This document shows, piece after piece, positions 50,890 to 55,898 of a stretch of 64,000 nucleotides of DNA. The DNA is from Clavibacter sp. (GTDB lineage Bacteria; Actinomycetota; Actinomycetes; Nanopelagicales; Nanopelagicaceae), in NCBI GenBank assembly GCA_003569145.1, contig BGOH01000002.1:62001-126000 (forward strand), written 5' to 3'. The number at the start of each line of letters is the position of its first letter. Position 1 is the first letter of the stretch. Made by a program: the position numbers and the translations under genes. The notes beneath the pieces were generated by a model, which was not told the DNA's origin, did no database searches, and saw nothing but the letters and a program-made list of their open reading frames with translations.

Positions 50890-50893
50890 AACG

Positions 50894-50966
50894 TGGAGCT
50901 AAGGGGACTTGAACCCCTGACCCCCTGCATGCCATGCAGGTGCGCTACCAGCTGCGCCATAGCCCC
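50894..50966 (-). tRNA. tRNA-Ala (GGC)
   Basis: Seventy-three bases on the minus strand beginning GGGGCTA and ending TAGCTCC plus discriminator A. The anticodon stem CCTGC/GCAGG encloses ATGGCAT, anticodon GGC at 50931-50933; T-loop GGTTCAAGTCC. CCA is not encoded. Between the SDR gene and the phosphatase gene. Confidence 0.95.
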
Positions 50967-51013: not shown

Positions 51014-51658
51014 CTACGCCCCACTTTCCTCTCCATATATCGGCTCGGGTAGTGAGCCAGAGTTATGTTCTACTAAAACCCAACCAGAGCGATGATGGCC
51101 ATTTTCTAGAATCGACCAAGAAGCATTGGATAGTCCGCCGATTGATGACCACTGTTTCATCGGCATATCAAGCATCTTGCCTAAAATACAACGCGCAGTT
51201 CCGCCGTGGGTTGCAACTATTAGAGTTGAGACATCGCCGCGTAAACCCTTTTCAATTGCTCTAACAGCTCTTGTGGCAATCTCACTTCTCTTCTCGCCAA
51301 CTTCTCCTGCCCTCTCATCATCTCCATCTAACCAATGAACAAATCGATGATAATCCTCAGCTCTATTCTGCTCCCCAGTTTTTCCTTCCCAATTGCCACC
51401 ATTGGTCTCTCTTAAGTCTGGATCAATGTGAACTTCTAGGCCAGCTAACTTGGCTAGCGCCTCGGCAGTCTTTCTTGCTCTAATTAAATCGCTTGAAATT
51501 ATTTTCGAAGGTTGAAGATTTAGAAGTAGTGGAGCTGCTCGCTCCACTTGGCGTATACCAACCTCATTTAAGGCAATATCAGAATGTCCCTGAAATCGAT
51601 TAGCGATATTCCAATCAGTCTGGCCATGGCGCCAGAGAACTATGCGTTGTCTCTCCAT
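51014..51658 (-). CDS. Histidine phosphatase (phosphoglycerate-mutase-like) family protein
   Basis: Protein of 214 residues with the catalytic RHG in LWRHGQTDWNIANRFQGHSD, the second acidic site DLRETNGGNWEGKTGEQ and the second catalytic His in VATHGGTARCIL. In actinobacteria the gene always follows nadD-rsfS; the Mycobacterium homologue (Rv2419c) is a glucosyl-3-phosphoglycerate phosphatase, a possible but unproven role here. Lies three bases from rsfS. Confidence 0.88.
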   Translation of the reverse strand: MERQRIVLWRHGQTDWNIANRFQGHSDIALNEVGIRQVERAAPLLLNLQPSKIISSDLIRARKTAEALAKLAGLEVHIDPDLRETNGGNWEGKTGEQNRAEDYHRFVHWLDGDDERAGEVGEKRSEIATRAVRAIEKGLRGDVSTLIVATHGGTARCILGKMLDMPMKQWSSIGGLSNASWSILENGHHRSGWVLVEHNSGSLPEPIYGEESGA

Positions 51659-51661
51659 TTT

Positions 51662-52045
51662 TTATTTGCCTGCCTTGAATGCCTCAGCTGCCGTTAGCGC
51701 ATCTAATTTGATACTTGGACAATCATTCCAAAGCCGATCTAGGCTGTAATACTGGCGTGCCTGCTGAGTTTGAACATGAACCACTAAATCTTGATAATCA
51801 AGAAGAATCCAATTCTCTGAACTCTCTCGTCTAGTTGGCTTCTCCCCCAAGAGTGATAATTGGCGCTCTACTTCATCAGCAATTGCATCAATTTGTCGCT
51901 CATTACCTCCACTAATTAATAGAAATACTTCACTTAAGAGCATCTGTTCTGATAAATCCATTGCCAGTAAATCACTGCCCAGCTTCTCTATAGCAGCAGA
52001 TGCAGCTATCTGGGTGTGTTCAAGCGTTGATTTACGCGGCGGCAT
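51662..52045 (-). CDS. rsfS: Ribosome silencing factor RsfS
   Basis: Binds uL14 on the 50S subunit and blocks subunit joining under starvation. The 127 residues show the family core (SEVFLLISGGNERQIDAIAD and YQDLVVHVQTQQARQYYSLD). Overlaps the end of nadD by 14 bases, the usual nadD-rsfS pair. Confidence 0.95.
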   Translation of the reverse strand: MPPRKSTLEHTQIAASAAIEKLGSDLLAMDLSEQMLLSEVFLLISGGNERQIDAIADEVERQLSLLGEKPTRRESSENWILLDYQDLVVHVQTQQARQYYSLDRLWNDCPSIKLDALTAAEAFKAGK

Positions 52046-52634
52046 AGATTCCTTGGCTCTTTATATAGGCAGCCACTCCGGCCGGCACAAGTGAATCAAA
52101 AGGCTCTGATGCCTTTATCAAATTTCGAACCTTGGTTGAGGAGATATCTAGCGCGTTTATCTCTATCTGGCTATAAGTAATTGACTTTGCAACCTTTGCA
52201 CTTTCTAATTTCTGACCAGGGCGAGTAATTACTAGAAATTCCACGCTCTTTGCCACCTGCTCAACCTCTTTCCACTCATCAATTTTTGCAAAAGCATCGC
52301 TACCGATTATCCAAACTAGATTATCGCCAGGATTTTGCGTGGTGAAATAATCAATGCTCTGAAAAGCATAGCTTGGCCTTGAATCATCAATTTCAAATCT
52401 GCTTATCTCAAGCTCTCTATATCTGCTCATACAATCTTTCAAAGCAATTTCAACCATAGCAAGACGGTGGGCCGCGCTAGCTGCAACGCTCTTCTGCCAA
52501 GGGTTGCCAGCAGGAATAACAATGAATTTTTCAAAACGCGCAGAGCTTAAAAGTTCTTCAATGACAAAAAGATGCCCATTATGAATGGGGTCAAAACTTC
52601 CCCCAAATAAGGCGATTGATTTAGTCGCGATCAA
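52032..52634 (-). CDS. nadD: Nicotinate-nucleotide adenylyltransferase
   Basis: Joins ATP and nicotinate mononucleotide in NAD synthesis. Nucleotidyltransferase of 200 residues with ALFGGSFDPIHNGHLFVIEE (HxGH) and ISSTKVRNLI. The TTG at 52632-52634 is the likely start; it lies inside the last codons of the small membrane protein gene upstream, so the two are translationally coupled. Confidence 0.95.
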   Translation of the reverse strand: MIATKSIALFGGSFDPIHNGHLFVIEELLSSARFEKFIVIPAGNPWQKSVAASAAHRLAMVEIALKDCMSRYRELEISRFEIDDSRPSYAFQSIDYFTTQNPGDNLVWIIGSDAFAKIDEWKEVEQVAKSVEFLVITRPGQKLESAKVAKSITYSQIEINALDISSTKVRNLIKASEPFDSLVPAGVAAYIKSQGIYAAA

Positions 52635-52767
52635 GGCGTAGTACTAGATAGAGCATCAGCATCAAAACGGCAAAGGTAAAGACTCCGAAAAATACTGGGG
52701 AGGCTGGAAGTTCACGCTTGACCTCACTGAAGCTCTCCATCAGCATCGCAATTGAAAATAACTTCAT
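52621..52767 (-). CDS. Small single-span membrane protein upstream of nadD
   Basis: A 48-residue reading frame with ATG at 52765-52767 and TAA at 52621-52623. The N-terminal 22 residues are amphipathic and charged (SFSEVKRELPASP), followed by one membrane helix (VFFGVFTFAVLMLMLYLVL) and a charged end RLDRD. It ends 14 bases inside nadD in a different frame. Tiny proteins with a C-terminal helix ending in R-x-D/N-x-D are commonly annotated next to nadD in actinobacteria, so it is probably real and conserved; function unknown. Confidence 0.72.
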   Translation of the reverse strand: MKLFSIAMLMESFSEVKRELPASPVFFGVFTFAVLMLMLYLVLRLDRD

Positions 52768-52779
52768 CACTTACCTATC

Positions 52780-55898
<3,119 letters not shown>

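Follow-up and report, generated by a model that had tools for sequence, protein, structure and literature searches.

A conserved small membrane protein ORF, most likely leaderless, ahead of nadD genes with weak or non-canonical start codons in Nanopelagicaceae-like actinobacteria

The window, that is, the whole 64,000-nt stretch of DNA analysed here, comes from Clavibacter sp. (GCA_003569145.1, contig BGOH01000002.1, forward-strand positions 62,001-126,000), whose assembly measures 1.08 Mb and is 81% complete. On its minus strand the gene order is mnmA, ligA, a small ORF, nadD, rsfS and a histidine-phosphatase-superfamily gene. The upstream neighbour of the small ORF is ligA (52780-54816; NF005932 and TIGR00575), itself preceded by a gene which, judging by its sequence, I take to be mnmA. 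The small ORF (52621-52770) encodes 49 amino acids from GTG 52770 to a TAA stop that ends at 52621. Its last 14 nt (52621-52634) overlap, out of frame, the beginning of nadD (52032-52634; nicotinate-nucleotide adenylyltransferase, TIGR00482 163.6 bits against a cut-off of 112.45), exactly as an earlier, sequence-only reading of this DNA had described. The train of overlapping genes continues with rsfS (51662-52045; ribosome silencing factor, PF02410 and TIGR00090) and ends with the gene of the histidine-phosphatase superfamily (51014-51658; PF00300). A second conserved overlap in this operon is that of rsfS on the end of nadD, which spans 14 nt in the window (52032-52045) and is present in 104/104 loci measured (11-17 nt in 103, 4 nt in one); the phosphatase gene overlaps rsfS, or sits at most 5 nt away, in 78/101 loci. 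On the same strand, a tRNA-Ala (ggc) occupies positions 50893-50966, and the short ORFs listed there are frames crossing the tRNA gene.

The frame first proposed for the small ORF, 52621-52767, does encode 48 residues and had been credited with a clean start; the frame stands, and the start codon moves one codon upstream. An in-frame GTG (52768-52770) precedes ATG 52767, and a putative -10 box, TAGGAT (52777-52782), lies 6 nt ahead of it, its TAG doubling as the ligA stop codon (52780-52782). Close relatives have no ATG at that place: L003, L065 and L066 read GTG then ATC, and L004 reads GTG GTG. Given the spacing of TAGGAT and the absence of ATG in these relatives, GTG 52770 is the better start and most likely the one used in the window, instead of ATG 52767.

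The product is a predicted single-span membrane protein. AlphaFold2 returns the C-terminal helix that had been anticipated (residues 25-48, block pLDDT 90-98), together with an additional, less sure helix at residues 2-14. By a charge-based look at topology, the net charge of the C-tail is near 0, and other members of the class seem to have positive tails. Several class homologues (L150, L153, L165, L167, L174, L229, L281, L287) carry His-rich extended C-terminal tails past the membrane helix, which are possibly metal-binding.

Within the window's own group, termed Nanopelagicaceae-like (freshwater actinobacteria) and referred to below as the family, the peptide is matched in 54/61 genomes (E = 3.8e-26 to 4.5e-4) and in 36/40 of the good assemblies. 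In 29 other genomes, whose loci (L003-L031) are the top-scoring matches and not a random draw, the small ORF is flanked by ligA and nadD, all three on one strand, in 29/29 loci. Seven residues (R19, P25, F28, G29, F33, L40 and R45) are invariant in 30 family members. Over a 31-codon core, the median dN/dS is 0.24 and none of the 782 informative pairs reaches 1 (0.05<pS<0.6; 101/110 rows used, nine being left out for differing ends), a sign of purifying selection; full-length values within the genus, taken against the window, range from 0 to 0.76. Owing to the E-values in the family, the invariant gene order and the purifying selection, comparison of sequences confirms the small ORF as a real gene, far beyond chance. 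Conservation next to nadD in relatives and the synonymous/non-synonymous ratio were the two checks that the sequence-only reading had put forward, and both uphold the coding frame that it had found unlisted.

That reading had also spoken of a small protein without known role, and indeed it falls within no curated family of Pfam or NCBIfam. The best Pfam score of the window peptide is 12.7 bits, below the cut-off of 24, and NCBIfam gave no match; when 36 class members were searched against Pfam, NCBIfam and PHROGs, scattered weak matches only were returned (MAP17 in 5/36, best E 0.013). A PDB sequence search gave none for the window peptide at E up to 5, and one at E 0.69 for the A2 profile.

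The small ORF extends well beyond the family. A family profile matches 79/393 class genomes at E<=0.01, and all 40 out-of-family places so matched were fetched. A NadD motif lies downstream, on the same strand, in 36/40 of them, the distance from the ORF being 20-209 nt in 27 cases and 0.9-2.4 kb in nine (L142, L143, L148, L149, L152, L159, L160, L161, L170); these nine loci have apparently acquired an additional gene between the small ORF and nadD and kept the ORF. Four profile matches, L173, L177, L178 and L181, are without nadD and were judged non-members. A class profile of 36 rows matches 174/296 Actinomycetes genomes at E<=0.001. In a phylum-wide draw of 149 genomes it matches 8/13 of the class and, convincingly, 0/136 of other classes; three other-class matches (E 0.0019-0.0091), located inside frames of 308-477 aa, were judged to be chance. 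An iterative profile starting from nadD was supplied with 135 loci, the NadD motif being readable in 110; the draw consisted in part of the top-scoring nadD genes. It found the small ORF upstream in 29/67 class loci outside the family and in 0/40 loci of other classes. The small ORF was found neither in the f4 (Mycobacteriaceae-like) genomes examined, among which the class profile matched 0/5 in the phylum-wide draw, nor in several other families, the labels Mycobacteriaceae-like (f4) and Streptomyces-like being guesses for coded groups. The earlier suggestion that such proteins are conserved beside nadD in actinobacteria is, hence, borne out by the out-of-family and class-wide counts, yet conservation is not universal.

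The sequence-only reading had missed what appears to be a leaderless promoter ahead of the small ORF. The promoter set comprised 137 loci, of which 136 had a match, and was reduced to 110 distinct family copies. The hexamer TANNNT occurs exactly 6 nt (75 copies) or 7 nt (34 copies) ahead of an in-frame start (ATG 99, GTG 10) in 109/110 copies; none of the other spacers between 0 and 39 has it in more than 19 of the 110. If the first ATG/GTG is taken as the start by rule, 91/110 copies have TANNNT at 5-7 nt versus a mean of 6.1 and a maximum of 14 in 200 shuffles; of the 19/110 copies that are off the promoter spacing under this rule, 18 fit with another in-frame start, and L019 is the sole family copy without a fitting hexamer. 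An origin of the motif as a mere artefact of the ligA stop was rejected, as the TA of TANNNT is that of the ligA stop in 33/108 copies only, the window included. Outside the family, in 67 copies from the class, TANNNT peaks at spacers 6, 7 and 8 (12, 7 and 5 copies; at most 4 at others), so that the arrangement is partly shared across the class. There is no clear consensus in the -35 region upstream of the family copies, and a generic promoter scan of the window returned no minus-strand site at the small ORF start. As given in the available text of the respective reports, mapping of transcription start sites in S. lividans found a -10 TAnnnT with a mean spacer of 6.3 nt and 17% leaderless transcripts (PMC8079986), and a survey put leaderless genes at ~19% in Actinobacteria (PMC3160421). 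Most likely, the mRNA of the small ORF is leaderless, its transcription beginning at its own start codon.

The start of nadD is as peculiar as that of the small ORF. In the window, TTG (52632-52634) is the sole canonical start, the frame being closed immediately ahead of it. Counting codons between the upstream stop and the NadD motif, in the 109 family loci where that motif is readable, the best start available is TTG in 69, GTG in 5 and ATG in 1, and 34 loci have none of ATG/GTG/TTG; a second count by tblastn gave TTG 68, none 33, GTG 5 and ATG 2 of 108. Neighbouring genes taken as controls have an ATG available in 105/106 (rsfS), 41/50 (ligA), 93/101 (phosphatase) and 35/41 (mnmA) loci, and not one of these control genes is without a canonical start. 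A Shine-Dalgarno core of at least 4 nt ahead of nadD is absent in 101/109 loci. Outside the family, nadD genes of the class have GTG in 66, ATG in 33 and none in 7 of 106; since GTG and ATG are the usual starts there, the strict dependence described below is to be regarded as a family trait.

Most nadD loci without a canonical start fall into two patterns. In 23 of the 34, codon -7, counted from the GG motif, is an invariant ATC (23/24 rows), whereas the Ile codon at -2 takes several forms (ATT 18, ATC 4, ATA 2). In L141, L094 and L124 a stop codon is present 0 to 3 codons ahead of this ATC. Ten of the 34 have an ATT overlapping the small ORF stop as TAATT; some of these carry a second Ile codon after it, and the exact nadD start codon there is uncertain. 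One locus, L020, fits neither pattern. Relative to the small ORF stop, TTG is located at +1 (30), at -14 (20), as in the window, at 0 (7) or elsewhere from -11 to +24; the ATT start is at -1 and the ATC mostly at +4. Nor are such starts restricted to the family: in L229, L281 and L169, nadD is without ATG, GTG or TTG within 30 codons, and a CTG shares bases with the small ORF stop in a CTGA, which looks like an independent case of coupling to a non-canonical start. Existing annotation probably places the nadD start wrongly, or cuts the gene short, in several of these freshwater lineages.

Of the 61 family genomes, seven do not match the peptide. Three of them (G019, G031, G054) are without the small ORF; G014, G035 and G049, in which no nadD over the cut-off was found, and G042, whose nadD match is without its first positions, are uninformative on ORF loss. 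In the genus of G019, 18 nadD loci were read from 17/21 genomes. The small ORF is present in 12/18, with TTG directly after its TAA in 11 of the 12; in the six loci without it, nadD abuts ligA and has an ATG start in 6/6, two of them with a strong Shine-Dalgarno core before nadD. A quick tree of LigA (124 rows) places the ORF loss on a single change, so that its coincidence with ATG counts as one independent observation and is probably one event. The start-codon state requires nine changes on the same tree, which implies that the weak nadD starts changed type several times.

The interpretation that I consider quite likely is that the leaderless small ORF is a first cistron which feeds ribosomes to nadD by termination-reinitiation. 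The small ORF would head the nadD-rsfS-phosphatase operon, with transcription beginning at its start codon from the -10 box (in the window, by reusing the ligA stop codon) and ribosomes presumably entering at the 5' end of the leaderless mRNA. The ribosome would make the 49-residue single-span membrane protein and terminate at about -14 to +24 nt from the nadD start; that ribosome, or another passed on locally, would then reinitiate at nadD, and rsfS would depend on the same ribosome stream. Because it combines a TTG, ATC or ATT start with the lack of a Shine-Dalgarno core, nadD is not easily started otherwise, ATT being quoted at ~0.3% of ATG efficiency in the available text of PMC10666635. 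With nadD almost devoid of a usable start signal, NadD synthesis probably depends on that of the small protein and, as rsfS overlaps nadD, ribosome entry to the whole operon is probably through the leaderless start. The translational coupling that the earlier reading had derived from the overlap thus gains support from the weak or absent nadD starts, the missing Shine-Dalgarno core and the ATG that is back where the ORF was lost. Some nadD starts at +16 to +24 nt past the small ORF stop were counted against coupling, for it needs an overlap or a very short distance and is weak at longer ones such as these (PMC10666635, as far as its available text goes). The predicted RNA fold of the region is ordinary (z -0.43), hence masking of the nadD start by structure is not indicated.

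A stricter version may be envisaged, which I regard as rather unlikely: ribosomes would enter the nadD-rsfS operon only via the 5'-terminal start, used by intact 70S ribosomes, and IF3 would reject the ATC, ATT or TTG start of nadD in ordinary 30S initiation, leaving it usable only by ribosomes just off the small ORF. Leaderless mRNAs are described as binding 70S ribosomes, and IF3 as discriminating against unusual sites, in the available text of PMC9031893. If 70S-only entry were true, NAD synthesis and RsfS would track the condition of the ribosome pool, and perhaps the membrane insertion of the peptide, instead of ordinary initiation.

Purifying selection on the peptide suggests that it also functions as a protein in the membrane, and I think that this function is most likely a separate or accessory membrane role, as opposed to a part in NadD catalysis. 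One might go further and see in it a conventional membrane protein with a task of its own (e.g. as an accessory subunit of a membrane complex), packed against nadD by genome streamlining, while nadD initiates by itself from TTG, ATC or ATT. Conservation at the protein level is in line with this, as are the ORF-nadD spacing, often larger elsewhere in the class, and the 9/40 matches at 0.9-2.4 kb from the NadD motif, where the peptide persists without tight coupling. Self-initiation sits badly, however, with neighbouring genes of the same genomes that keep their ATG, with a nadD devoid of a Shine-Dalgarno core in 101/109 loci and with the ATG found again at nadD where the ORF was lost, and on balance I hold this explanation to be unlikely. 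At the other extreme, the small ORF could be only a cis-acting leader whose translation matters and whose peptide does not. A median dN/dS of 0.24, seven invariant residues and class-wide conservation make this very unlikely, even though the operon-head position and the coupling would suit such a leader, and leaderless operon-head small ORFs are known in mycobacteria (PMC4633059, available text).

There are two further explanations. A membrane-anchored NadD fusion could arise from the small ORF by programmed frameshifting or by readthrough, as the frames abut and nadD is often without a canonical start; this is scarcely conceivable, for the NadD motif is found at offsets of 21, 25, 32, 33, 35, 36, 44 and 47 nt from the stop, that is, in all three phases, and L094 and L124 have stop codons in the nadD frame just ahead of the ATC. 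A short ORF ahead of a biosynthetic gene may also call to mind an attenuator or riboswitch leader controlling nadD, with the small ORF as the leader peptide. I deem this extremely unlikely in view of the ordinary fold (z -0.43), of the lack of any Rfam match except a tRNA outside the junction, and of terminator-like sites that are at chance level; the peptide contains no stretch of any regulatory amino acid, and the combination of regulatory codon run and terminator/antiterminator that defines amino-acid attenuators was not found here.

As far as the literature searched shows, the new elements here are the family itself, its class-wide link with nadD and the conserved ATC, ATT and TTG starts, by which the link appears obligatory; in the accessible portions of that literature, neither the small ORF nor non-canonical nadD starts were found described. 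A class-wide, uncurated family of small membrane proteins is thereby added, tied to an essential gene of NAD synthesis. The locus also offers a naturally replicated test of coupling, with more than 100 related loci in which an essential gene without a standard start stands beside a leaderless ORF, and with one clade in which ORF loss is accompanied by the return of the nadD ATG.

Non-canonical starts in themselves have precedents: in E. coli, infC and pcnB have AUU starts, which are a control point under IF3. The likeness lies in the non-canonical start codon; unlike in those cases, the gene here is nadD and the codon stands beside the stop of a leaderless ORF. As in termination-reinitiation pairs, stop and start overlap, or lie at a very short distance of a few nt; the usual coupled overlaps are, in the available text of the reports (PMC10666635, PMC12548453), NTGA or 1 nt, whereas many genomes here have TAATT, or an ATC at about +4 nt. 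The leaderless small ORF coupled to the next gene is already a known kind, since leaderless small ORFs at mycobacterial operon heads, translationally coupled to the next gene, have been reported (PLoS Genet 2015, PMC4633059; the comparison that follows is with the available text of that report). Both are first in the operon, encode a small protein of <50 residues and have a stop near, or overlapping, the next start. They also share a 5'-terminal start codon, which here is deduced from a -10 box that would place the transcription start at the start codon. The mycobacterial ORFs were mapped by transcription start sites and ribosome profiling; for the present small ORF, the median dN/dS of 0.24 speaks indirectly for ribosome occupancy. 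Finally, the conserved mycobacterial examples precede cysA2, Rv0485 and nirA, whereas the present family precedes nadD and, unlike them, combines a product predicted to be a membrane protein with a downstream gene that starts with TTG, ATC or ATT.
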